Assembly (NCBI GenBank): GCA_947631575.1
Contig: CANRLW010000008.1
Span: 1 to 62,476 of the forward strand
DNA from: an uncultured Clostridia bacterium
GTDB taxonomy: Bacteria > Bacillota > Clostridia > Oscillospirales > Ruminococcaceae
Reading direction: 5' to 3'
DNA: 62,476 nt
How positions within the stretch are numbered: position 1 is the first letter of the stretch; the number at the start of each line of letters is the position of its first letter. The translations under genes and the position numbers were made by a program. A model generated the notes under the pieces. It ran no database searches. It saw only the letters and a program-made list of their open reading frames with translations, and was not told where the DNA came from. Shown here piece after piece: positions 21,547-35,300 of the stretch.

Positions 21547-21606
21547 GGCAAAAGAATTTTTGAGTTGCCGCCTGTCAGCTAGTGCGGCTTGTCGGAGGAA
21601 AACGAT

Positions 21607-24600
21607 ATGCAGAACCGAAATAACGCATCAAATAAAAAACTGCATAGCCAAAGGACTCTGTGGCAAAGAATACTTGCCTCGGTGCTTTGCGTTTGTCTTG
21701 TCGTTCCTATGTTGAATGGCGTTGATCTCACATGGAAAATGCAATCGAAGTCGAATATAGCATCCGCGGCTACAGCGGCAGAGGAAAAGAAAGAGCGCGA
21801 AGAAGAATACGCGAAGAAATTTGATTTGAATAATCTTCTTTGGAGCGGCGCTACCACGGCAAACGGAAACATAAACTATGGCAATTCTATGAGGACTTAT
21901 CTTGACTGGCGTACAGGATCGAATGCAGGAATGAACCAAAGGAATTATATCCATGTTTTCGCTTTTGAAGGCGATACTATCTGTTTCGGTTCAAATGTTT
22001 TTAACTCCACGCTGAACGAATCCGGATTAGCGGCAGCTACCGCTGCTGAAAAGCAAGATATACATAATCGTTTTGGCGATGAGAACGCGACCATAGATAT
22101 TGTGCTTATTGATCTTCAAGGAAACCGCATACCTTTTGATGTAGTTCAAAACGGCGTAGGTCATATTCCAAACGTACAGACTGAAGTTCTTGCGAAAACC
22201 ATGGAGAGCATGGCGGGAAATAGCGGAAAAAACAAAAGCGGCACAGAATTTACTTATACTCCCCTTACCTATAAAGTAAAGGAAACAGGCGTTTATACAT
22301 TTGAATTTCATTCCTATGATAACTCCGGAACTTCCGGTGTCACTATAAAAAATGATACGGTTGAAACAGTTTCGGGAGTTAATGTTGGAAACACATTTTA
22401 CGATTTTTATACAAGTGTTAAAAATAATAAAACTAACACATATTATACTCCAACTGATAACGAACATGGCGGTTTGGTCGCAGCGTGGGATATAAGCGTT
22501 TTTAATGAAATGGATCAGAAAGAAACAGGCAGAGTTTATGCCGATTATCTTTCTTTACAGCAAAACGGCAACTCTACAATAGAAACTTATTATGTACTGA
22601 CTACAGACAGTTATATCTATAGGTGGGATTGGAAAGGAAATGCTCCTTATACATACTATTTCTTTACGGATAACCGCGGTCTTATTGACAATGTTACGGG
22701 CAATACTATTTACAAATCCGCAAAAGGTTATACTAACAACGGAGAAGATTATACAAAATTCGGAGCGGAATATAAATATCCTACAAGTATAAATACGGAA
22801 ACTTCTAAAACTTTTTCCATATTCTTTGAAATGCCGAACCCCGACCTCGAGGGGCATATGTATTCAAAGGCTCTCCAGCCCGACCCGGCAGAGGATATAA
22901 AGTTTATTGATATGGTTTCTATACCGGATACTGCTAATCCGGGCGAATATGTTGATGTACCCGGCGCTTATAAAGGGGCGGGCGGATATTTCTCGTTTAA
23001 AACAGGAGAGGCAACTACAGCCACGCTGACGCTCGATTTCACAAAGCTTAAAGACGAAAAAGGAAATCCTGTAAGCGTAAGCTATGCTCCCGTAAGTATT
23101 TCAAGATCGGTAACGCCTCATTCCATAAACTATTTTTACTGGGACGGAAAAGACGGAAACGGAGTAGTTATACCCGCGGGAAAATACAACATAACAGATC
23201 TGATTACTATCACCACTAAAGCGGGAGAGATACATTTCCCCGTAAACGATTTGGAAAATGCTGTAAACGGTTTTACCTTTACACGTGTTAGCCACATCTA
23301 TGACAAAAGCGGAAAACAATTAGACACGCCCGGCTCTATCCTTGACGCAACAAAGAGCGTAATTTATTATGACGATTCCGCTATTTATTACGGAGAAAAA
23401 ATAGGAAATACAGATAATACAGAAGAAATTGTAAGATCAGATGATACAAAAGCTGAGAACACTCAAACTTTACGTGAAAAATTCCCGGATAGAATAGTAG
23501 AAAACGACGGCACGGGAAAATCATATTTTCGCTACTATAATATGTCCGACGAAATTTCAACATCAAAGTGTCATACAGGTTATATTAAAGGCAACGAATA
23601 TGAAATTAGAAAAGCCTGCGCGGATTATGTAGGCGGTATTACTGCACTTAATGACGGAGTTACGACCACTACTACTGCCGATAAGTTTATACGCATAGGC
23701 GACCATAGCCATACCACAAACCAAATTGAGTATTATAAGGACGGGAAATTCCTCAAAGAGGGTGAATTTGAAGATCAGATGGCGATGATAAACTATCTTG
23801 ACAGCTCACTTCACCCTGTAGGAATAACCAATGCGGGAACAGGTATGAGTACAAGCGACTACGGACTTGTAAACTACTGGACATTTATTCCCTCTCAGCC
23901 CGCAAAGTTTAATTCCGAAGTCGGAACTATAGACATAGTAGAGGGAGATTCTTTCAATCTTTATTGTCAGGTATTCTTTGACAACGACAAAGACGGAATT
24001 TATGACCAGATGAAAGACGAGGACACGCTCCTTTCAGGCGTAACTCTCAGACTTTACCGCAAAACAAAGGACACGACCAGACAGGCAGACAAAACATACT
24101 ATACAACAAAACCACAAAGTACCCTTGTCAATGCTAAGGATAAAATCACACCTCCATTTAATACTTTAATTCCATATGAGGGAAACACTCCCCAAGCAGA
24201 CGGAGCTTTTGAGCTATACCGCGAGGCAGTTACCACTGTAGGCGGATATGTGTTCAGTAATATTCCATATGAAGACGGAGACGTTTTCGCATTTGAAGTT
24301 GTACGTCCGAATGACAGTTATATTCTGACTTCTGGACAGCAACAAGGTAAAAGACCTACAAATCTGACTTCCGGTCATATCATAGGAAACAACTATGTTC
24401 TTTATAACTTTGACTCAAAAGCTTTCGGAACGGAAGTTCAGGTTATAACCGTAGGCAAAGAAGAAAATCAAATTAACCCGAAATTGAAAAGCGACGGTAA
24501 GAGCGACAACGACACCCGCACCATATCGGCTATCGACGTAGGCTATAACTATACTACATACAAGACCGTAACTCTTCAGAAGACATGGGAAACAGCGAAT

Positions 24601-27600
24601 CCGACTGACGAAACGCCCGTGCCCGTGTTTGAGCTTAGCTATGTAGACAACGAAAATAAAACTCATGTCTACGAGGAAAGACCCCTCGCAAAGATAGACA
24701 AGCTTTCATATTCCTATCCCCTGCTTTCAAACTCCATAGACGGGAAACTGATAAACGACTGGTATGTTTCGGCGGAATACTATATAATAGATGACGTGCT
24801 GTATAAGCAGAAGTTTGAATATTCGCCCGAGGCTAAAGATTATTCGAGCTTTGTAGGAAAGTGCTATCAGAAAACACTTGAGGATACAAACGAGGACAGC
24901 GTAATAGACCAGTTTGACATTCCCGACACAAACGGCGACGGAGTGAACGACTGGAGCGACCTCGCAGAAACTACCGGTTGGACAGAATCGACTGATTCGA
25001 AATATCACGCGGTTCTTGACAGAATACTTGGCACGCAGGAAATAAACATAAGCATAACGAACTCGCAAAAGCCGGGTATTATAGAAGTGTTGAAATACAC
25101 GGGAGCATTAGAGGACAACAATCTTCTTCAAGGCGCGACGTTCCGTGTATATACAAACAGCGACACCGAAGATCCACTAACGCTTAAAGATGTTCAAGAT
25201 AAAATCGACGGAGGAACAACCGAAGATCTGCAATGGCTTGCCGATCGTCAGGTAGGAAGTTCCACGACAAGAACAAACGGGCGCGTTACCTTTGCGGGAC
25301 TTGACCCGACAAAGCACTATATAGTGCGCGAGATGTACGCCCCCGCGGGCTACAGATTTATGGAGGCTCTCTATATAGTTCACCCGCACGACTGTACAAC
25401 ACATACGTTAGCCGCAGACGCAAGCGAAGTTGAAACCGAAAAATGGAACATGCAGAACTTCTTCTTCGAGGAAAACGGTTATGTTCTGGCAGAAATTGCT
25501 AATATCCCCGCAAACGGAGATATGGCGATAAGAAAACAGATAGTCGGGCGCGCCTGGAACAATCTGGACAGTTTCTCTTTTGATCTTGCGTTTTGGAACG
25601 AAAGCGGCAGTAAGCTTAGCTTTTCAAGCGGTACTTATAACTATCCCGGAGCTATCGAGATATCGGAAGAAGAATACATGCGCTTTACTACAGCGGGTCA
25701 AGATTCACAGCTATTAGAAGACCTTCAAAAGTTTATCGATGCGATAAATAACAGCGAAAATGATATAGTAGTAAACTATCAGAGCGAATTTGCTAAAAAT
25801 GTTATTTCAATAAACGGCACAAAGGATATTGAAGAATCGCTCGTAGACACAAAACAGTCGGTTTCGCTCGTTGTAAATGATGATGACAGAGATGAAGACG
25901 GAGAGCTCAAAGAAACAGAACCCAAAGACGCTATTCTTAATACTTCACAGAATACAAGTGAACCTACATCGCAACAGGCAGTAAACCATCACTTCTTCCC
26001 TGCTGCGGGAACGTATACGTTTACGATAAGGGAAAATGTGGGCGATCAAGGAACAATGAGATATACGGGGCGCGTTTATACGCTCGAGGTAGAAGTAACG
26101 AGAATGCCCGACAAGGGTATTACTGAAGGCTCAACGTTGACTAAAGATAACTCTTATCTTAGAGCGGAAGTAACACAGATCTATTATCAGGATCCGACAC
26201 CAGACAGCACAGGATACCCCAACGGTTACAGTGCGAAACAGATCTACGCGGGCGTTGCTCCTACATTTACAAACGAGTATTATGTACAGCCCGCTAAGCA
26301 AACCACGAGCTACTCCATTCAAAAACTGTTCAGCGGAAGAATGAACAGCGAAGGAAACCCGCTGACAGAATGGCTTGATAAAGATGAATTTACAATCAGG
26401 ATAGAGGGCGAGGACGACATAACAAAAGCAGCTCTCGCAAACGGAAACATCTTTATAGGCGGTCTGAATGAGACAGTTTCTTACAGTGAAACAAAGACGC
26501 TTGTCTTTACGAAAGACGGAGTTTTTGTCAACAAAAACGGCGAGCTTAAAAAGGTAGCCGAAAATCACTCATTCGCGTTTGACGAGCTGGATTTCCGAAA
26601 CCTTGCGTTCCCTGTTGAATGGGTGTTCTCAGTAACCAAAGGCTCGTATAATGAGGGCGACGTTGTTCCGAAGAGCGAGAATGAAAATGAAAATGTAGTT
26701 CTTTATCTTGACGAGGAAACAGCCAGCAAATATGACTTATCTGCCGGAAACTACTTTGTCAAAAATGCAAGTGCTGAATTAAAAGCAGAAAATCTTTATC
26801 CCGTAATTTCGCGGACGCAGGACATTGTTTATACTCTGATAATAAGCGAAGAAGACGGCAAATTACCGGGCATTACTTATGACCCGAAAAAGTATAAAAT
26901 GGTCATTACTCTTAAAAATGCCCTCGTTGTCAGCACTTCTACAGGACTTGCAGATGCAGTTACAGACGGCATAATTGACGAGATCGAGATAAAACTTTTT
27001 TCTGTAGACGGCACAACAGAAAAACAACAGGCATACTGCAAGACTGACCAGCATGTTGTGACAACATATGCAGAATGGAGCTCTCCTCAAACATACTCTT
27101 TCGGAAGTGTGCTTGACAACAAAAACGAGCTTACTTATGGTGTTTACTACGTCAATTCCAAAGGAGAAATAAGAGAGCCGGAAAAAATCGGATCGGGCTA
27201 TAGAGTGTACATTGACGGCAGAGAATACGAAATAACCGCAGATAACTTCGAAACATATATTAAGGATTACGGAGTTACTTTCATAATCAAACGCGAGGAA
27301 CATTCCGCCACGGAAACCCACGCAATGCCGTTTAACAACTCCTACACGGAAACCGCTACATGGACGCCGAAGATCTCAAAAACGATAAACGGAAGAAGTT
27401 GGCTTAGTACCGACAGCTTTACGTTCACCATAGCAGCAACTTCTTGGCCCGGAAGTCCAAACGTAGCACACAAGCCTACTATCACTAATGATACAATTGA
27501 TATCACAAATTCTGATCTGACAAAACAGACAGCCGAGGCTACGATGTCGGACATAAAGTTCAATGCTCCGGGACAATATACGTTTACGGTAAGCGAAAGT

Positions 27601-28878
27601 TCGATGACAGCAACAGGCGGTATAAGCATAAATTACGGAAAAGTAGAGCTTACTGTTACTGTAGCAAGCAACAACGATGGTACTTTGTCAGTCACAGAAG
27701 TCAAGGCTACAGACCCGACCGCAACCGGCGGAACCGATATAACAAGTCCTTTTATAGACGGTACTCCGGAAAATGTAGTTCTAAAATTTGTAAACACCTA
27801 CAGCGAAACGGGAACATTCCAACTTTACCTCACAAAGACGCTTAAAGGAAGAGAATGGACGGACGAAGAATTTACCTTTATCATTACTCCTGATGCGGCT
27901 ACTTTGGCGGCAATAGACAAAGGAGAGTTAGTTCTTGATCCCAAGATTTGGAAACGAAATACTGACGGAAAAACTTATACCGTGACTATTAATAATGATA
28001 ACTCCACGGACGTTACGGAAGAACTAAAAACTACGCCTTGGACAACAAGAAAACTTGATTTGGGAGAGCTTGTAGTAACCACTCCCAGACCGGCAAGCGA
28101 GGCATACAAGTTTACAATTAAGGAAGAAGAAAGCGAAAATCTTGCTTGCGTTCAGCCGAACATTGACCTAAATATAACCGCAACTTCTGACGGAAATAGC
28201 GCCGGTGTTCTTACGTTTACGGCAACATATGCTATTGTAGATTCTGACACGACTATTAAAACCACAGACGGTAGCATTACACTTCCGTTCACCAACGCGG
28301 ACACAAGGCTTGGAACAATAACAGTGACTAAGGTCGTTAGAGATCAGCCCGCGGACGAAAGGTTCACATTTACGCTGACATTGACAGCGCCAACAGAGAA
28401 CAATCTTCTTTTAGTGATTGATGAGCTTAATATTACTATTAGCGGCGGTGAAATCACGAAAGGATTTGACACAAGCACCACCGACGGAACTTATACGATG
28501 ACGTTTGAATTAAAGCACAACGGAAATCTTTTAATCGAGAATGTTCCTTATGGTACTGAATACAAGGTGACGGAAGACGTTCCTGACAAATTCCACCTAC
28601 AGGAAGTCAAGGACAAAGACAACAAAGCTCTTACGTTGTTGCCTGACGGAAATGGAGTAAACGGCGAAGTAACGACCGAAAACAACAATATTGTTCTTGA
28701 GTTTGTAAACTCGCGGTTCTATGATATGCCGTTTACGGGCGGAGCGGGCGTTCACCCATGGGTAATACTCGGAATAATGCTTATGGTTCTCCCGCCGACT
28801 ATCTATCTGTTTTACAGGAAAAAGCGAAAACTCGCAGAGGGTTCGCACGGTCCTTTAAAAAATAGTAAAATCAAATGA
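21607..28878 (+). CDS. Giant LPXTG-type pilus tip/adhesin protein
   Basis: A 2423-residue surface protein; the ATG at 21607 is set by GGAGG 8-9 nt upstream. Signal peptide: LWQRILASVLCVCLVVPML. Residues about 40-750 form a large unrecognised domain, probably adhesive. Then come an SdrD-B-like module with a calcium-type loop (FFDNDKDGIYDQ, about 790), a CnaB-like module (about 985), a SpaA-like module with E-box YIVREMYAPAGY (about 1155-1290), and four or five FctA/CnaB-type modules to about 2370. The sorting signal is MPFTG (2374-2378), a membrane helix and KKRK, with M in place of L. It is first in the operon and resembles tip adhesins of Spa-type pili. Confidence 0.85.
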   Translation: MQNRNNASNKKLHSQRTLWQRILASVLCVCLVVPMLNGVDLTWKMQSKSNIASAATAAEEKKEREEEYAKKFDLNNLLWSGATTANGNINYGNSMRTYLDWRTGSNAGMNQRNYIHVFAFEGDTICFGSNVFNSTLNESGLAAATAAEKQDIHNRFGDENATIDIVLIDLQGNRIPFDVVQNGVGHIPNVQTEVLAKTMESMAGNSGKNKSGTEFTYTPLTYKVKETGVYTFEFHSYDNSGTSGVTIKNDTVETVSGVNVGNTFYDFYTSVKNNKTNTYYTPTDNEHGGLVAAWDISVFNEMDQKETGRVYADYLSLQQNGNSTIETYYVLTTDSYIYRWDWKGNAPYTYYFFTDNRGLIDNVTGNTIYKSAKGYTNNGEDYTKFGAEYKYPTSINTETSKTFSIFFEMPNPDLEGHMYSKALQPDPAEDIKFIDMVSIPDTANPGEYVDVPGAYKGAGGYFSFKTGEATTATLTLDFTKLKDEKGNPVSVSYAPVSISRSVTPHSINYFYWDGKDGNGVVIPAGKYNITDLITITTKAGEIHFPVNDLENAVNGFTFTRVSHIYDKSGKQLDTPGSILDATKSVIYYDDSAIYYGEKIGNTDNTEEIVRSDDTKAENTQTLREKFPDRIVENDGTGKSYFRYYNMSDEISTSKCHTGYIKGNEYEIRKACADYVGGITALNDGVTTTTTADKFIRIGDHSHTTNQIEYYKDGKFLKEGEFEDQMAMINYLDSSLHPVGITNAGTGMSTSDYGLVNYWTFIPSQPAKFNSEVGTIDIVEGDSFNLYCQVFFDNDKDGIYDQMKDEDTLLSGVTLRLYRKTKDTTRQADKTYYTTKPQSTLVNAKDKITPPFNTLIPYEGNTPQADGAFELYREAVTTVGGYVFSNIPYEDGDVFAFEVVRPNDSYILTSGQQQGKRPTNLTSGHIIGNNYVLYNFDSKAFGTEVQVITVGKEENQINPKLKSDGKSDNDTRTISAIDVGYNYTTYKTVTLQKTWETANPTDETPVPVFELSYVDNENKTHVYEERPLAKIDKLSYSYPLLSNSIDGKLINDWYVSAEYYIIDDVLYKQKFEYSPEAKDYSSFVGKCYQKTLEDTNEDSVIDQFDIPDTNGDGVNDWSDLAETTGWTESTDSKYHAVLDRILGTQEINISITNSQKPGIIEVLKYTGALEDNNLLQGATFRVYTNSDTEDPLTLKDVQDKIDGGTTEDLQWLADRQVGSSTTRTNGRVTFAGLDPTKHYIVREMYAPAGYRFMEALYIVHPHDCTTHTLAADASEVETEKWNMQNFFFEENGYVLAEIANIPANGDMAIRKQIVGRAWNNLDSFSFDLAFWNESGSKLSFSSGTYNYPGAIEISEEEYMRFTTAGQDSQLLEDLQKFIDAINNSENDIVVNYQSEFAKNVISINGTKDIEESLVDTKQSVSLVVNDDDRDEDGELKETEPKDAILNTSQNTSEPTSQQAVNHHFFPAAGTYTFTIRENVGDQGTMRYTGRVYTLEVEVTRMPDKGITEGSTLTKDNSYLRAEVTQIYYQDPTPDSTGYPNGYSAKQIYAGVAPTFTNEYYVQPAKQTTSYSIQKLFSGRMNSEGNPLTEWLDKDEFTIRIEGEDDITKAALANGNIFIGGLNETVSYSETKTLVFTKDGVFVNKNGELKKVAENHSFAFDELDFRNLAFPVEWVFSVTKGSYNEGDVVPKSENENENVVLYLDEETASKYDLSAGNYFVKNASAELKAENLYPVISRTQDIVYTLIISEEDGKLPGITYDPKKYKMVITLKNALVVSTSTGLADAVTDGIIDEIEIKLFSVDGTTEKQQAYCKTDQHVVTTYAEWSSPQTYSFGSVLDNKNELTYGVYYVNSKGEIREPEKIGSGYRVYIDGREYEITADNFETYIKDYGVTFIIKREEHSATETHAMPFNNSYTETATWTPKISKTINGRSWLSTDSFTFTIAATSWPGSPNVAHKPTITNDTIDITNSDLTKQTAEATMSDIKFNAPGQYTFTVSESSMTATGGISINYGKVELTVTVASNNDGTLSVTEVKATDPTATGGTDITSPFIDGTPENVVLKFVNTYSETGTFQLYLTKTLKGREWTDEEFTFIITPDAATLAAIDKGELVLDPKIWKRNTDGKTYTVTINNDNSTDVTEELKTTPWTTRKLDLGELVVTTPRPASEAYKFTIKEEESENLACVQPNIDLNITATSDGNSAGVLTFTATYAIVDSDTTIKTTDGSITLPFTNADTRLGTITVTKVVRDQPADERFTFTLTLTAPTENNLLLVIDELNITISGGEITKGFDTSTTDGTYTMTFELKHNGNLLIENVPYGTEYKVTEDVPDKFHLQEVKDKDNKALTLLPDGNGVNGEVTTENNNIVLEFVNSRFYDMPFTGGAGVHPWVILGIMLMVLPPTIYLFYRKKRKLAEGSHGPLKNSKIK

Positions 28879-28898
28879 TTTGAAGGAAGGAGTTTTTT

Positions 28899-30887
28899 AT
28901 GAATACTTCAACAAAACATTTTTTACCTAGGATAATAAGCGCAGTAATTGCGGTGCTGCTGGCGCTTACGGTGGCTGTGCCAGCGATGGGGGCGACTTCT
29001 ACGCCTTTGCCAACGTCTGACAACCTTACGATAACCATTCATAACAATACGGGTCTGCCTGTTATGAAAGAGGATATGTTTGCTGTATATCAACTTTTCA
29101 CGGGCGTTGTCAGTGACGTACATAAATCAGAAGATGATGCTGAATGGAACGATACATGGGAAGATTACACCCTTGCAGATATTGAATGGGGTGCAAGCCT
29201 TAAAGACGGTTATGGAACTTTGCTTACAACTCTTAAAGATGATTTAGATGAAACAGACTATCCTTGGGCTTTCCATGAAAAAACAAATGTATTTGCAAGT
29301 GTAAATACTGCGGCTGAATTGGCAAACGTTCTTGCAGAATATGGCACTACCACAGAATTTATGCAGGGATTTGCTAAAATTCTTAAAACAACAAAAGGCA
29401 TTTTAACTCCGCTTAAAAAAGACACTGATTACACAGAAAAATTAACTTCAGCCGCAGATGCTGCTAATGATACACTTTCTTACAAAGTAAATGCTCCCGG
29501 CTATTATATGTTTGCAGAGCCGAAAAAACATGAGGCTGATGATGACGCTGAATCCGAATATATCATAGCTGTTCTCGGAAGTCAGTCAATCTATCTGAAG
29601 GCATCTATACCTACCGTTGAAAAATGGATAAATAAAGCTGAAGAAACTAAAGGAACATCTGCGGATATTACCGATACGATAAAGTTTGTTATTAAAGGTA
29701 CGCTGCCTAAAAACTATGGCGACTTCTTTGAAGGCTATGAGTATATATTCCATGATTATCTTTCTGACGCTTTCACAATGACTACGGATAAAGCTAAAAT
29801 AGTTGTTACTATTAAAACGGGCGCAGATACATTTATACTTACAAGTGATCAGTTTACTTGGAAAGATAAAAAAAGCGGGGATATTCCTGATATAGACTGT
29901 TCTCAAGAATTTCTTATCGGAATCTCGGAAGGAAGATCTGACGGATCAACTTACTGCAACTTAAAGAAACTGGAAGGTCAAGGAGATACAGAAGGTAATG
30001 AAATCAAAATAGACTCGTCTTCAATAATTACAGTAGAATATGAAGTGACCCTTAACGAAAATGCAAAAATGGGCGAAGACGGCAGAAATAAAAGTAGCGT
30101 TATTCTCCAGTATTCAAACGATCCTAACGCCGAACTGAATAACACAAATAAGACCAAAGAGAGCGATGTATATGTATATACTTATGGTCTTGATTTGACA
30201 AAAGTCGGCAGCGACAGCGCTCATGAAAAAGGACTTGGCGGAGCAAGCTTTGTACTCAAAAACAATGATGGTACTAAATACGCTCAATTTGAGGATCAAG
30301 AAATTGATGGCGTTACATATCGCCGCTTTAATGGTTGGGTAGATTCTTCAACCGTTGAGGCTTTGATCACGACTTATAATAACGCAAAAGATGCTTATGA
30401 CAAGGCTCCAAACGATAGCGCTACGGCTGCGAAAGAAGAACTTGAAAATGCAGTAAAGGCAATGGAAGGCTATCTGCTTACATCAGCTGATTCTACCGGT
30501 AAGATCTATGTAAAAGGCATTGACGACGATACATATTCTCTTGTCGAAGTTATAACTCCTGCGGGTTATAATACAATGACTGACTTTAAATTTACAATTA
30601 CCGAAAAAATAACTGAAACAAACGGACAGCTTACAGAATTTACATACCAGTCCGATACAACCATTGATGAAAAGATATATAGTTCTACAAGTGAATCAGG
30701 TATATTTAATTCCGGTCTTATCCCCGATAAATTGACAAACATAAAAGCTCCCCTCCTTCCCTTTACGGGCGGTATAGGAACAGTTATATTCTATGTTCTC
30801 GGCGGAGCGCTTGTTGCGGGAGCTATAGTGTACATCGTTATTATCGCTAAAAAGCGCAGAAAAGAAACAGAAAACTCTGATAAATGA
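28899..30887 (+). CDS. Major pilin, LPXTG-anchored, isopeptide-forming
   Basis: A 662-residue pilin with signal peptide (IISAVIAVLLALTVAVPAMGA), an N-terminal domain (NLTITIHNNTGLP), a middle domain opening PTVEKWINKAEETKGTSADI, a SpaA/CnaB-like domain (YGLDLTKVGSD...GLGGASFVL) with E-box YSLVEVITPAGYN, and sorting signal LPFTG (620-624) before a membrane helix and a basic tail. This is the layout of SpaA/FimA-type shaft pilins polymerised by class C sortases. The ribosome site (GGAAGGAG) is the strongest in the operon, in line with a high demand for shaft subunits. The polymerising lysine could not be assigned. Confidence 0.92.
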   Translation: MNTSTKHFLPRIISAVIAVLLALTVAVPAMGATSTPLPTSDNLTITIHNNTGLPVMKEDMFAVYQLFTGVVSDVHKSEDDAEWNDTWEDYTLADIEWGASLKDGYGTLLTTLKDDLDETDYPWAFHEKTNVFASVNTAAELANVLAEYGTTTEFMQGFAKILKTTKGILTPLKKDTDYTEKLTSAADAANDTLSYKVNAPGYYMFAEPKKHEADDDAESEYIIAVLGSQSIYLKASIPTVEKWINKAEETKGTSADITDTIKFVIKGTLPKNYGDFFEGYEYIFHDYLSDAFTMTTDKAKIVVTIKTGADTFILTSDQFTWKDKKSGDIPDIDCSQEFLIGISEGRSDGSTYCNLKKLEGQGDTEGNEIKIDSSSIITVEYEVTLNENAKMGEDGRNKSSVILQYSNDPNAELNNTNKTKESDVYVYTYGLDLTKVGSDSAHEKGLGGASFVLKNNDGTKYAQFEDQEIDGVTYRRFNGWVDSSTVEALITTYNNAKDAYDKAPNDSATAAKEELENAVKAMEGYLLTSADSTGKIYVKGIDDDTYSLVEVITPAGYNTMTDFKFTITEKITETNGQLTEFTYQSDTTIDEKIYSSTSESGIFNSGLIPDKLTNIKAPLLPFTGGIGTVIFYVLGGALVAGAIVYIVIIAKKRRKETENSDK

Positions 30888-30913
30888 TCTGCGTGGTCTG
30901 GGCGGCAGATCGC
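30888..30913 (+). promoter_or_regulatory. Hairpin between major pilin and first sortase
   Basis: GATCTGC/GCAGATC starts directly at the pilin stop. An overlapping alternative pairs GCGTG with CACGC (30921 region). No T-run, so it may be a processing site or a partial attenuator that lowers sortase expression relative to pilin. Confidence 0.5.
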
Positions 30914-30943
30914 CGTCCCGCACGCGGAGTTATGTAGAAACAT

Positions 30944-31810
30944 ATGGGAAAAACCGCAAAACCGAAAAGTAAAAAACATACCGCGGTTTCAGCCGTAATT
31001 CTGACGCTTGTTCTTCTTACGGGCATTGCGCTGCTGCTGTATCCGACTGTAGCGGATTATATAAATTCTCTCGACTACAGAAAGGATATCGAAAAGTATC
31101 AGGACGACGTTAAAAAACTTGACGACACGACAAGGCAGAATATGCTCAAAGAATCGGAAGAATGGAACATAAGGCTTGCCGAAAAATCGGAGTTTATGGG
31201 TCTGCTCACAAGCAAGGAACACACGACCTATAACAGCCTTTTAGACCCTTCGGGTACGGGTATTATAGGTTATATAGAAATTGAAAAGCTGAAAATTTAC
31301 CTTCCTATCTACCACGGAACGGAAGAACCTGTTCTTCAGAGCGGCATAGGACACCTTGAAGGCTCGTCGCTCCCCATAGGCGGAAAAGGAACTCATTCGC
31401 TTTTGTCGGGGCACAGCGGTCTTCCCTCCTCAAAGCTGTTCAGCAACATAGACCAGCTTGAAAAGGGAGATACGTTTGTTATTCATGTTCTCGGAGAAGT
31501 ATTGACATACAGAGTTGAAAGCTCGGTGGTAGTACTTCCCGAAGTTGCCGAAAAGCAGGAGTTTTATCCCGACCGCGATATTTGCACGCTTATGACCTGC
31601 ACGCCATATGGAGTGAATACACACCGACTTCTTGTGCAGGGAGTGAGGGTGGAAAGCGTTGCGGAGGAAAAGCCCGAAATGCCCGTTGAAGAAGTAATTC
31701 CCGAAGAAGAAATGCCCGTTATTCTATGGGTGGCAATTTTCGGTATTTCCGCGGTAATTATTGCCGTGGTGATAATTCTTCTTGTACGGCACAAAAAGCG
31801 GCAGAAATGA
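30944..31810 (+). CDS. Class C (pilus) sortase 1
   Basis: A 288-residue membrane transpeptidase with an N-terminal helix (SAVILTLVLLTGIALLLYPT) and a C-terminal helix (ILWVAIFGISAVIIAVVIIL). The catalytic residues are in SGHSGLPSS (His), TLMTCTPYGVNTHRL (Cys, Arg). The lid region before the core reads LLDPSGTGIIGYI, with the class C DP-type start. It should join pilin subunits by their threonine to a lysine of the next one. Only a weak ribosome site is visible. Confidence 0.94.
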   Translation: MGKTAKPKSKKHTAVSAVILTLVLLTGIALLLYPTVADYINSLDYRKDIEKYQDDVKKLDDTTRQNMLKESEEWNIRLAEKSEFMGLLTSKEHTTYNSLLDPSGTGIIGYIEIEKLKIYLPIYHGTEEPVLQSGIGHLEGSSLPIGGKGTHSLLSGHSGLPSSKLFSNIDQLEKGDTFVIHVLGEVLTYRVESSVVVLPEVAEKQEFYPDRDICTLMTCTPYGVNTHRLLVQGVRVESVAEEKPEMPVEEVIPEEEMPVILWVAIFGISAVIIAVVIILLVRHKKRQK

Positions 31811-31817
31811 GGCGGAA

Positions 31818-32693
31818 ATGAAAAAAGAAAGATCAAATTCGCCACTTCCGATTATAATAATCGTTGTCATGATGGTCACGGGTCTTGGCTTGTTGCTTTA
31901 TCCGACAATTGCCGACATGATAAACGATTCTCAGAATCAAAAGGCAATCTCCGAATATAAGGACAATATAGAGTCGCTCGGAGAAAGCGAATATCAGAAG
32001 ATACTCGAATCAATAAACGACTACAACAAAGACCGCGCGGAGCATACGCCTTATCTTACAAAGCTTACAGCCGAAGAAAGATCCGTTTATGAAAGCCTTT
32101 TGAATGACGGCGGAAACGGTCTTATAGGATATATCGAAGTTGAAAAATCGAACGTATATCTCGGCATTTACCACGGCACAGACGAAAGCGTTTTACAGAC
32201 GGGGGTAGGTCATCTCGAATCATCAAGCCTGCCCGCAAAGGGAGAAAGCGTTCACGTTATGCTTACGGGACACAGCGGACTTCCGTCGGCGCGTCTGTTT
32301 ACCGACCTTGACAAACTGAAACCGGGCGATAATTTTACCCTGCACATACTTAATGAAACGCTGGTTTATGAAGTTCAGAGTGTAAAGAGAGTGCTCCCCG
32401 AAGAGCTTGAAACTCTAAAGATAGAAGAAGGTCAGGAGCTATGCACTCTTATAACCTGCACTCCATACGGCGTAAATACTCACAGGCTTACGGTCACGGG
32501 GAAAAGAATTGACGCTCCCGAAAAAACCGAGGACCTCTCCCCTGCCGAGCAGGCGATAACTTCTACCTGGAACAGGTGGTTCGTATTCCTGCCTGCGGCG
32601 ATATTTATACTGATAACAGCGGGCGTTATTATACTGCTGTATTTCAGAAACAAAAAGAAGAAAACCCCTTCTGATAAGGAGGATAATAAATGA
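31818..32693 (+). CDS. Class C (pilus) sortase 2
   Basis: A 291-residue paralogue of sortase 1 with the same layout: N-terminal helix (IIIIVVMMVTGLGLLLYPT), core with TGHSGLPSARLF and TLITCTPYGVNTHRLTV, and a C-terminal helix and basic tail. In the lid position it has LLNDGGNGLIGYI, so the DP of sortase 1 is missing. The ATG at 31818 has GAGGCGGAA just before it; a longer reading starts inside sortase 1. It overlaps the minor pilin gene by ATGA. Two class C enzymes suggest division of labour, for example one for the tip and one for the shaft. Confidence 0.94.
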   Translation: MKKERSNSPLPIIIIVVMMVTGLGLLLYPTIADMINDSQNQKAISEYKDNIESLGESEYQKILESINDYNKDRAEHTPYLTKLTAEERSVYESLLNDGGNGLIGYIEVEKSNVYLGIYHGTDESVLQTGVGHLESSSLPAKGESVHVMLTGHSGLPSARLFTDLDKLKPGDNFTLHILNETLVYEVQSVKRVLPEELETLKIEEGQELCTLITCTPYGVNTHRLTVTGKRIDAPEKTEDLSPAEQAITSTWNRWFVFLPAAIFILITAGVIILLYFRNKKKKTPSDKEDNK

Positions 32694-33616
32694 AAAAACG
32701 CCTCATATCCATATTATTATGCATGACATTATTTTTAATAAACATCGTTCCGACATCTGCTGAAACTGTCGGGAGGATATATGTTATGCTCAAATATGAA
32801 GATATGCCTGTAGCAGGAGCGTCTTTTCAGATCTATAAAGCCGCAGAAATGACCGAGGACAGCATGACACTCACCGAGCAATTTTCGGGTTATCGCGTCA
32901 GCATGGCGCAAGACCCGAACAGTGACGAATGGAAAGCGCTCGCTTTTACGCTTGCGGCGTATGCGGCGACTGATAAATTAGAGCCTTTTGATGAACAACA
33001 GACGGACGAAAGCGGTATGCTGTGTTTTGACGGACTTTCGGACGGTGTTTACCTTGTAACGGGTTCACCCGTTATTCAAGATGACCTGCTGATACTGCCA
33101 CAAGCGGTGTTGGTGACTGTTCCGTATTCAAATGATACAGGTGAAACCGATTATGATGTAGTCGCTTTGCCTAAATACATATCGCGCGATTTAAATGGCG
33201 GCGTTTTGGAAAGACGCGTGCTGAAAATTTGGGACGATGAAAACAATATACAAAGCCGCCCGCAGGAAATAACCGTTCAGCTTTTCTGCGACGGTGAAGT
33301 TTATGACGAGCAAGTTCTGAATGAAGAATGCGGCTGGGGATATACCTGGACAGGTCTTGACCCGGCGCATAACTGGAATATAACGGAAAAGGAAGTTCCC
33401 GATGATTATACCGTAAAGATAATGCAGCAAGGCACGACCTTTACCATTACAAACACAAACGACACCCCTGCTCCCCCGCCGACAAAACCCGATGATCCCG
33501 ATCTTCCGTACACGGGAATGTTATGGCTGCCTGTTCCGATACTTATAGCTTTTGGCGCGGTAACGCTGTTTGTCGGAATAATGCTTTTTATCAAGAAAGA
33601 AGATATAGATGAGTAA
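32690..33616 (+). CDS. Minor (probably basal) pilin, LPXTG-anchored
   Basis: A 308-residue exported protein with signal peptide (LISILLCMTLFLINIVPTSA), a first domain (GRIYVMLKYEDMPVAGASFQ; GLSDGVYLVTG), a CnaB domain (VLKIWDDENN...QSRPQEITVQLF, ending TITNT), a Pro-rich stretch (DTPAPPPTKPDDPD) and the sorting signal LPYTG (272-276) with a membrane helix. A small size and a Pro-rich tail before LPXTG are features of pilus base subunits such as SpaB/FctB. It overlaps both neighbouring genes. Confidence 0.85.
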   Translation: MKKRLISILLCMTLFLINIVPTSAETVGRIYVMLKYEDMPVAGASFQIYKAAEMTEDSMTLTEQFSGYRVSMAQDPNSDEWKALAFTLAAYAATDKLEPFDEQQTDESGMLCFDGLSDGVYLVTGSPVIQDDLLILPQAVLVTVPYSNDTGETDYDVVALPKYISRDLNGGVLERRVLKIWDDENNIQSRPQEITVQLFCDGEVYDEQVLNEECGWGYTWTGLDPAHNWNITEKEVPDDYTVKIMQQGTTFTITNTNDTPAPPPTKPDDPDLPYTGMLWLPVPILIAFGAVTLFVGIMLFIKKEDIDE

Positions 33617-34232
33617 ACGCAGAAAACTCGGCATTGTTTTTATACTGATCGGAATCGTATTTATTCTCTGTGCGGTGGGACTTGTTATTTACAACATATG
33701 GGACGACAACAGAGCGCAGGAGTCTGTAAAGAGCGTGCTAGAAGAACTAAAACTTCCCGAAAAGACTGTTGAGGCAGAAGATAAAATAAGCGACGATCCG
33801 GAAGTGACGATTCCCGACTATCTGCTTGACCCAAACCGCGAAATGCCGACAATAACTGTAGACGGTTACAAATACATAGGAAAGGTAACTGTTCCCTCGA
33901 TAGAGCTTGAACTGCCCGTTATGGACAAATGGGATTATGTACGGCTAAGAAAAGCGCCATGTCGGTATTCCGGCTCGGTGTATCTGAATAACCTGATAAT
34001 CTGTGCGCACAATTACGCATCTGTTTTTGGTAGGCTCAAAAATCTTTCGGCAGGAGACCTTGTTATATTTACCGACGCAGAAGGCAATGTATTCAGATAT
34101 GAAGTAGAGCAGCTCGAAACCCTTTCGCCAAGCCAAGTTAAGGATATGAAAAGCGGCGACTGGGATCTTACGCTGTTTACCTGTACGGTCGGAGCGCTAA
34201 AGCGTGTAGCGGTCAGATGTGAAAGAATTTAG
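33609..34232 (+). CDS. Third sortase of the pilus operon
   Basis: A 207-residue sortase with one N-terminal helix (LGIVFILIGIVFILCAVGLVIY) and no C-terminal helix. His lies in IICAHNYASVFGRL; Cys and Arg are in LTLFTCTVGALKRVAVRCER. The loop after the catalytic Cys and the short length set it apart from the class C pair. It may be the anchoring enzyme that attaches finished pili to peptidoglycan. The class is uncertain (B-, D- or E-like). It overlaps the minor pilin gene by 8 nt and closes the operon. Confidence 0.88.
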   Translation: MSKRRKLGIVFILIGIVFILCAVGLVIYNIWDDNRAQESVKSVLEELKLPEKTVEAEDKISDDPEVTIPDYLLDPNREMPTITVDGYKYIGKVTVPSIELELPVMDKWDYVRLRKAPCRYSGSVYLNNLIICAHNYASVFGRLKNLSAGDLVIFTDAEGNVFRYEVEQLETLSPSQVKDMKSGDWDLTLFTCTVGALKRVAVRCERI

Positions 34233-34258: not shown

Positions 34259-34326
34259 AGCCCTTGACAAACCGATTTTTCTATGATATAATATTATCGT
34301 TGGTTTTTCGGTATAAGTCAAGGGCT
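34259..34326. repeat. Inverted repeat enclosing a promoter
   Basis: AGCCCTTGAC (34259-34268) and GTCAAGGGCT (34317-34326) are perfect complements; ACCGA (34272) and TCGGT (34308) extend the stem. The structure lies 27 bp past the last sortase and may also end the pilus transcript. Confidence 0.75.
34264..34292 (+). promoter_or_regulatory. Predicted strong promoter before the tRNA-like array
   Basis: TTGACA (34264-34269), 17 bp and TATAAT (34287-34292), both consensus hexamers. No protein gene follows until 35742, so it drives the tRNA region. Confidence 0.85.
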
Positions 34327-34333
34327 GTTGCCA

Positions 34334-34459
34334 GTTGACAGTATACAGTGTACGCATTATGCGTTTCGCGCCAAACGCTGTGTTCAGTAGAAAGTAAGCC
34401 GAAACAATTTGATATGTTGTTATAGCTCATTTGAGTTATCACTGAAAACAATTTAATAT
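34334..34459. repeat. First spacer unit of the tandem array
   Basis: Starts GTTGACAGTATACAGTGTAC and then holds AAGTAAGCCGAAACAATTTG and ATAGCTCATTTGAGTTATCA before AACAATTTAATAT. It is repeated with few changes at 34537-34638. Confidence 0.75.
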
Positions 34460-34530
34460 GCTGGTGTAGCTCAGTCGCGTAGACGTATCAAGCAGAGCTT
34501 GATACTGATCATTCGTAATGCGCAGGCAGG
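34460..34530 (+). pseudogene. Degenerate tRNA-Thr copy 1
   Basis: Keeps the 5' acceptor strand and D-arm (GCTGGTGTAGCTCAGTC) and ATTCGTAATGCGCAGG of the anticodon arm. A palindromic insert, GTATCAAGCAGAGCTTGATAC, interrupts it. The T-arm and 3' acceptor strand are missing, so no mature tRNA can form. Confidence 0.8.
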
Positions 34531-34638
34531 TTGGCAGTTGACAGTATACAGTGTAAAGTGTACAGTAGGAAGTAAGCCGAAACAATTTGATATGTTATTA
34601 TAGCTCATTTGAGTTATCACTGAAAACAATTTAATATG

Positions 34639-34706
34639 CTGGTGTAGCTCAGTCACGTAGACGTATCAAGCAGAGCTTTATACTGCGCATTCGTAATGCG
34701 TAGGTC
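34639..34706 (+). pseudogene. Degenerate tRNA-Thr copy 2
   Basis: Same structure as copy 1, 179 bp further on. The insert reads GTATCAAGCAGAGCTTTATAC and the anticodon-arm remnant GCGCATTCGTAATGCG is intact. It continues into GTGTGATGTTAATAAGGAGA instead of a T-arm. Confidence 0.8.
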
Positions 34707-34829
34707 GTGTGATGTTAATAAGGAGATACGGTAGCAGGTTGCGGTCTTGCAATTTTTTACGGTTCAACAACACAGGTTTTTATTCAGCGTTACCAAATGG
34801 CAGCTTCGGTTGCCGAAACAATTTAATAC

Positions 34830-34898
34830 GCTGGTGTAGCTCAGTCGTGTAGACGTATCAAGCAGAGCTTGATACTGCGCATTAGTAATGCGCAGGTC
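34830..34898 (+). pseudogene. Degenerate tRNA-Thr copy 3
   Basis: 191 bp after copy 2. The anticodon loop reads TTAGTAA instead of TTCGTAA, and the same palindromic insert is present. The 122-bp spacer after it (GTGTGATGTCTATAAGGAGA...) is a near copy of the spacer after copy 2. Confidence 0.8.
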
Positions 34899-35020
34899 GT
34901 GTGATGTCTATAAGGAGATATGGCAGCGGTTGCGGTCTTGCAAATTTTTACGGTTCATTAACACGGGTTTTTGTTCAGCGTTCCCAAATGGTAATTTCGG
35001 TTGCCAAAACAATTTAATAT

Positions 35021-35096
35021 GCTGGTGTAGCTCAGTCGGTAGAGCAGCGCATTCGTAATGCGCAGGTCGGGGGTTCGAGTCCGTTCACCAGCTCCA
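35021..35096 (+). tRNA. tRNA-Thr (anticodon CGT)
   Basis: 76 nt with encoded CCA. Acceptor GCTGGTG/CACCAGC, D-arm GCTC..GAGC, anticodon arm GCGCA-TTCGTAA-TGCGC and T-loop TTCGAGT. The T-stem GGGGG/CCGTT is weak: two G-U pairs and one G-G mismatch. It is the last and only complete unit of the tandem array and is read from the same strand as the pilus operon. Confidence 0.9.
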
Positions 35097-35300
35097 ACTA
35101 ACGTTGACAAAAAAGATATTATGCCCGCAAACGGATAATGTGTTGAGTTATTTGCGGGCATAAATCTTTCGAAAATCCGGAATGCGACTCCACAGATATT
35201 TTTGACACGAAAATGGCAGGGTCAAACAAGTTCTACCCGCGAACCCCTCCCCTACAAAATTTCTTCGGTTGAAATCATGCAGTTTGCACATATTTAAGTC

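Follow-up and report, generated by a model that had tools for sequence, protein, structure and literature searches.

The only tRNA gene in the window (the whole stretch of DNA that was analysed, 62,476 nucleotides), tRNA-Thr(CGT) at 35021-35096 as called by ARAGORN and Rfam, is preceded by three partial copies starting at 34460, 34638 and 34830. With a probability of about one half, we read this array as a family of RNA elements that derive from tRNA-Thr, stand in tandem in the leader of the tRNA-Thr(CGU) gene, are maintained by selection and would act at the level of RNA. Comparison across species suggests that the units are structured, tRNA-derived RNA with a job of their own, and not genetic debris. 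The preliminary description had offered three readings, namely tRNA-like regulatory RNA, scars of repeated integration at a tRNA gene, and decoys for tRNA enzymes; the first fits best, since units occur in many species and the spacer, the hairpins and the anticodon arm are kept.

Anatomy of the array

The elements of the array and its flanks are the following:

34264..34292, + strand: promoter TTGACA-17-TATAAT, the sole 12/12 match here, taken to drive both the array and the tRNA
34327..34352, + strand: dispersed repeat (AGTTGACAGTATACAGTGTA; AGTTGACAGTATACAGTGTACAG), with a second copy from 34530 to about 34555-34575
34460..34527, + strand: head of unit 1, form A, tRNA-Thr 5' half with broken anticodon stem
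34485..34505, + strand: form A hairpin of unit 1, 9 bp stem and 3-nt loop
34528..34637, + strand: spacer of unit 1, dispersed repeat plus a copy of the leader stretch 34380-34459
34638..34705, + strand: head of unit 2, form A
34663..34683, + strand: form A hairpin of unit 2, with one mismatch
34703..34829, + strand: conserved spacer of unit 2, 135.8 bits to model R1, by construction (in its building set)
34704..34732, + strand: P2 hairpin GUCGUGU/AURCGGY of unit 2, at the place of the T arm, pairing across 21 units
34734..34758, + strand: weak terminator-like hairpin and U run of unit 2, -5.3 kcal/mol
34799..34814, + strand: H6 hairpin GGCAGC-UUCG-GUUGCC of unit 2, before the next 5' half
34830..34897, + strand: head of unit 3, form A, anticodon AGU
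34855..34875, + strand: form A hairpin of unit 3
34895..35020, + strand: conserved spacer of unit 3, 135.3 bits to model R1, by construction (in its building set)
34896..34924, + strand: P2 hairpin of unit 3
34990..35005, + strand: H6 hairpin of unit 3, ahead of the intact tRNA
35021..35096, + strand: intact tRNA-Thr, anticodon CGU, CCA encoded (ARAGORN, Rfam)
35119..35163, + strand: inverted repeat past the tRNA, 13 bp arms, without a U run, a possible transcript end

The preliminary description had recognised the four units and the strong promoter upstream, which is indeed a 12/12 match, but it placed the second unit at 34639 instead of 34638, so that its spacings of 179, 191 and 191 become 178, 192 and 191. 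The palindromic insert that it took to be identical in all three partial units is present three times; the 21-nt sequence is exact in units 1 and 3 and carries one mismatch in unit 2, and it is not a clean insertion, since it stands in place of the D stem's 3' strand (where the normal sequence reads GTCGGTAGAGCA, the units have GTCRYGTAGAC followed by the hairpin and T). The palindrome occurred in 0 of 100 window shuffles, and nothing within 3 mismatches of it was found elsewhere in the 1.88 Mb assembly. The 5' half is retained in these units as had been stated, but the anticodon arm is altered in each of them: the stem is broken in unit 1 and contains a G-U pair in unit 2, and the anticodon of unit 3 is AGT in place of CGT. 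Likewise, the repetition of the spacers holds for spacers 2 and 3, which are 90% alike over 111 nt and form one family, but not for spacer 1, which differs from both and contains the dispersed repeat.

The tRNA model RF00005 describes a whole cloverleaf, T arm and 3' strand of the acceptor included, and the partial units of the window appear in neither the ARAGORN nor the cmscan output, even at E up to 1; a search of the own genome for the tRNA family gave 31 matches, with just 35021 in the window. Over the array, no Rfam family besides tRNA, the T-box riboswitch included, reached the gathering threshold, and the sole extra match at E up to 1 was a sub-threshold CRISPR-repeat match on the opposite strand in the leader. 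When unit 1 was compared with the own genome, at least 56 matches were obtained, most of them to the dispersed repeat; AGTTGACAGTATACAGTGTACAG recurs at about 50 other places in the genome among the matches listed and is possibly a small mobile or palindromic repeat. A sortase/pilin-type cluster at 21589-34232, with a 2429-aa ORF, Cna_B/SpaA pilin-like proteins and sortases, ends just before the array.

Distribution among related genomes

Relatives were searched in 61 genomes (the own genome and 60 others) and in 43 genomes of the genus. The array is not a local accident and is more than a local oddity. Fourteen of the 43 genomes carry units where tRNA-Thr(CGU) is encoded (G000, G004, G006, G008, G013, G020, G028, G029, G032, G033, G034, G036, G064 and G065), two of which, G013 and G065, hold remnants; decayed units or remnants were also seen in G036 and on contig L120. 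Twelve genomes of the 43 have the tRNA without any unit (G001, G002, G014, G015, G017, G018, G025, G027, G031, G062, G063 and G066), and 17 were left unclassed, most of them judged by match lists alone (no full-length tRNA-Thr(CGU) match) and three, G005, G022 and G035, having a contig that stops inside the gene or a unit. The units are thus dispensable, because 12 of the 26 classed genus genomes carry the tRNA without them. Copy number runs from one to six units; the relatives whose titles were checked are metagenome assemblies, and several contigs end within arrays. In all 11 loci that reach far enough, the gene after the units is tRNA-Thr.

Beyond the genus set, the exact pattern of the spacer start was found in 10 contigs of an 84,980-species collection, all from metagenome assemblies assigned to uncultured Clostridia, Oscillospiraceae and, in one case (L120), Erysipelotrichaceae; viral contigs gave no exact match to this pattern or to that of the palindrome. 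A covariance model of the spacer matched 13 of the 43 genus genomes, three of 396 genomes in a family sample, all of this genus, and two of 394 in an order sample, namely the own genome and G387, the latter two scans being even samples with strict filters and few candidates scored per genome, which may miss weak or diverged relatives. G387 belongs to another genus of the same family and has one unit ahead of its tRNA-Thr(CGU).

Several loci have peculiarities of their own. In G028 (L142:787-979) the tRNA-Thr(CGU) behind the unit belongs to another sequence family, which looks like a replacement of the original tRNA. The array of G029 (L070:1012-1627, and L071) encloses a glyoxalase-family ORF and a DUF3795 ORF between promoter and tRNA, and G013 holds sequence near-identical to this insert. 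On L120, from 730 onward, an ORF read by eye as DNA cytosine methyltransferase-like lies directly 3' of the tRNA, which suggests an island on the 3' side. Separate tRNA-Thr 3' halves that begin at the anticodon loop, like attachment traces of integrative elements, occur on L110 (G018:C111) and L111 (G015:C1). Finally, G008 possesses a tRNA-Thr-like gene of full length (G008:C51:14334-14432, equal to L082:435-533, minus strand) that combines a form B hairpin and an anticodon loop of 8 nt with an intact T arm and acceptor; ARAGORN does not call it. ORFs that by eye resemble type I restriction genes end beside it, and no normal tRNA-Thr(CGU) was found in this assembly.

Architecture of the units

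A unit comprises tRNA base 1 to about 49, followed in the full form by a spacer of ~125-140 nt. Heads occur in three forms: N has a normal D arm, A is the form found in the window with the hairpin GTATCAAGC-AGA-GCTTGATAC, and B carries GGGATATGC-TTC-GCAAATCCC or variants of it. Forms A and B have flanking changes in common and follow the same plan of 9 bp and a 3-nt loop, but differ in sequence. Taken by themselves, the heads do not have unusual folding energies (z of -0.4, -0.4 and -1.5, against -3.2 for the intact tRNA).

In most units the spacer starts with GGTCGTGTG-N6-AYAARGAGAYRCGG. Its P2 stem pairs GUCGUGU with AYRCGRY; 98.6% of 147 cells are paired in the 21 units that have letters on both sides, and all changes that keep a pair are one-sided. 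Past P2 come a weak hairpin with a U run, then H5 (GAUGAACG../CGUUCAUC), which is present in 10 of 18 aligned units and includes two pairs scored as changed in both strands, and then H6, placed directly before an AU-rich linker and the next 5' half. A different spacer, containing the dispersed repeat, is found in unit 1 of G000, G004 and G008 and in unit 2 of G033.

Two further features were considered and given up. Pairing of the first 13 nt of the unit with the spacer (P1) is common to many units, but shuffled spacers achieve it as well (fractions 0.18 to 0.81), and in unit 1 of G020, in G029 and in G032 a change disrupts a P1 pair but leaves the P2 pair intact; P1 is retained just as an alternative fold. 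A small protein behind an AAGGAG motif was dismissed on the grounds that the alignment has no common start codon and that the spacers are unlike by a gap of 10 columns.

Possible recombination, neutral duplication or constraint

In G006 the spacers of unit 2 and unit 4 are 99% identical below unlike heads (forms A and N, respectively), and some spacer pairs from different species (up to 0.93) are closer than many pairs within one genome; heads and spacers therefore seem to have recombined, and head forms appear to have been exchanged between units. The main rival to selection takes such recombination as the whole explanation: leader and tRNA 5' half would have been duplicated once, and recombination would have multiplied and homogenised the copies without any function. 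In the window itself, the 147-nt stretch 34380-34526 recurs at 34558-34704 with 95% identity. The unlike heads on like spacers in G006, the higher mean spacer identity within genomes (0.81) than between them (0.73), the copy number of 1 to 6 with units missing from nearly half of the classed genomes (12/26), and the remnants or decayed units in G013, G065, G036 and L120 likewise agree with a neutral repeat family. We nevertheless consider it unlikely on balance, in view of the rates at which the locus has diverged.

Six species with usable units and a syntenic divergent upstream gene, read as signal-peptidase-like without a family search, provided 15 species pairs for a comparison of rates. 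The upstream gene is 47-71% identical in amino acids, and its third codon positions agree at 29-43%, where about 25% is random. Once the bases in common with the tRNA are removed, the spacer core is 67-89% identical (15 pairs, 26-54 columns, one unit per species, with strongly diverged spacers, that is G028 and decayed units, left out) and 69-89% identical when the other G020 unit is substituted. As the spacer is conserved at this level where third codon positions are near random, the units look selected and not decaying; such conservation would be hard to explain without constraint, and homogenisation within one genome cannot hold separate species together. Transfer of the whole locus could be a source of the likeness, but synteny speaks against it. 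Along these lines, the genus comparison argues against the outcome that the preliminary description had set against its proposal, decay of the copies without conservation of insert or anticodon stem, although the copies in the own genome do show some decay.

The anticodon arm is also kept. G35-U36 of the anticodon is present in 31 of 31 units with a recognisable arm, and the exact arm in 24 of these, none of them from the window; the census takes in recognisable arms only, after removal of nine chance matches of a permissive pattern, full-length tRNAs and the decayed G036 unit, while the decayed L120 unit and the G013 and G065 remnants did not match the pattern, and the unit at a contig end in G032 may be the actual tRNA gene. 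Gene conversion from the genuine tRNA might suffice to keep most of these arms intact. In G028, however, the unit retains its own A27-U43 pair beside a different tRNA-Thr with an unrelated anticodon stem (the genome is 76% complete), which argues for more than gene conversion behind the conservation of the arm, and the retention of a unit next to a different tRNA-Thr also speaks against neutral duplication.

Two-sided covariation, on the other hand, is thin, and for the spacer it is unproven by shuffles. The full-unit alignment A2 contains 7 two-sided pairs, a number reached by 9 of 500 shuffles, and 5 of the 7 fall in the head hairpin that distinguishes A from B. Compared with shuffles, four measures for the full unit were reached by 0, 9, 0 and 1 of 500 and a fifth by 174 of 500, a result of which the A-versus-B hairpin carries much, related sequences being able to beat shuffles without structure. 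The 3 two-sided pairs of the spacer alignment A4 were reached by 109 of 500 shuffles (56 to 109 of 500 across measures), the value observed for P2 alone was reached by 500 of 500, and RNAalifold returned no two-sided pair.

Transcription and proposed mode of action

A 12/12 promoter lies ahead of the first unit in 15 of 16 loci, the contig of L120 starting inside the promoter region. The last spacer has no promoter match of at least 10/12 in the 11 loci that reach the tRNA; the spacers with the dispersed repeat in G000, G004 and G033 do have 10/12 matches. With a full promoter upstream and none in the last spacer, tRNA-Thr is therefore probably made from one transcript running through the array.

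It can be rationalized that each unit of such a transcript would contribute a tRNA 5' half, consisting of the acceptor 5' strand, the D arm or its replacement hairpin and the anticodon arm, together with a spacer that has hairpins of its own. P2 would stand in the place of the T arm. H6 and the AU-rich linker ahead of each 5' half resemble a processing module and may mark a site where the precursor is cut. Recombination between the direct repeats would let the units multiply, get lost and swap heads. If transcribed, the units would present additional Thr anticodon arms and might be bound by a protein that reads the anticodon arm of tRNA-Thr; threonyl-tRNA synthetase (ThrRS) is a candidate, and its binding is a guess by analogy. 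Carried further, the units could represent a novel RNA class, in which a tRNA precursor carries the anticodon arm of its own tRNA in tandem copies within its leader; by way of these, the synthetase or some other protein that reads tRNA would be titrated or would exert feedback on expression of the tRNA gene, a proposal that we regard as speculative and rather doubtful.

The position of the units between promoter and tRNA would also suit attenuation in cis, in which every unit would terminate weakly and conditionally and so set how much transcription reads through into tRNA-Thr. A U run is preceded by a weak hairpin in the 18 aligned spacers, and in unit 2 of G004 one pair of this hairpin is changed on both sides; but the hairpin amounts to just -1.6 to -5.3 kcal/mol, G008 and G034 have an interrupted U run, and a terminator scan of the array in the window gave 1 site against a shuffle mean of 0.9, so that we hold attenuation to be improbable.

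The well-kept anticodon arm could alternatively serve as a decoy, diverting an anticodon nuclease, or integrases with the anticodon loop of tRNA-Thr as their target, a reading which overlaps with that of a tRNA-like regulatory RNA. The 3' halves of G015 and G018, which start at the anticodon loop and resemble attachment sites, and the form B head joined to an intact 3' half near putative type I restriction genes in G008 are compatible with this. The decoy reading leaves the conserved spacer unexplained, no nuclease or integrase is among the seven scanned window proteins beside the array, and we judge it decidedly improbable.

Transfer RNA genes are common insertion sites, and in the genus tRNA-Thr has traces on its 3' side, in G015 and G018; scars of repeated integration of mobile elements would nevertheless be expected to show the tRNA 3' end duplicated at the distal end of an integrase-encoding element, and the proposal is very improbable here, as the copies lie upstream and consist of 5' halves that share a single junction and come with a conserved spacer, the spacers (at most about 140 nt) are too short for an integrase, the seven scanned proteins include none, the one long insert scanned (G029) encodes the two ORFs named above, and no exact match to viral contigs was obtained.

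Relation to known systems and implications

The reading preferred here, selected tRNA-derived RNA elements in a tRNA leader, has partial parallels. The rtT repeats of the tyrT tRNA operon of E. coli are tandem repeats of ~178 bp, each with a piece of the tRNA gene, which are cotranscribed and give a small RNA. The direct repeats of the present array also contain part of the adjacent tRNA gene each, and they stand behind a single strong promoter, which makes their cotranscription probable; in contrast, rtT repeats lie downstream of the tRNA and contain its 3' end only, whereas the units are upstream 5' halves with the anticodon arm. A spacer RNA from a tRNA precursor with a regulatory role is 3'ETS-leuZ, a sponge for small RNAs, but it contains no tRNA copy and is not repeated.

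In the leader of E. coli thrS, mimics of the CGU anticodon arm are reported to be bound by ThrRS in its own mRNA (PMC7373986). Stem-loops in the form of the tRNA-Thr anticodon arm are likewise found in the units, with G35-U36 in every recognisable arm and exact arms in most, though not in the three of the window. The thrS operator precedes the thrS coding region and acts on translation (PMC7373986), whereas the units precede a tRNA gene, tRNA-Thr following in each of the 11 loci that extend to it. The pseudo-tRNA tRNA-Other of B. cereus is a single copy with a Trp anticodon beside a genomic island and has been suggested to belong to a larger RNA with a regulatory role (PMC3399842); the units differ in forming a tandem array in the leader of their parent tRNA. 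A literature search of titles and abstract openings, which covered few subscription papers, recognised no such array among the hits listed; this is not proof of absence.

With its natural series of loci that have no unit, one unit, up to six, or remnants, the tRNA-Thr(CGU) gene of these uncultured gut bacteria seems to have yielded a separate structured RNA at its own locus. Should feedback or titration through a tRNA-reading protein hold true, the three exchanging head forms would represent a tRNA mimic that evolves in a cassette-like manner. Provided that the units are transcribed, they would constitute a rare bacterial case of a tRNA-derived RNA array under selection, and the sensing of a tRNA precursor by a synthetase would become a testable question.
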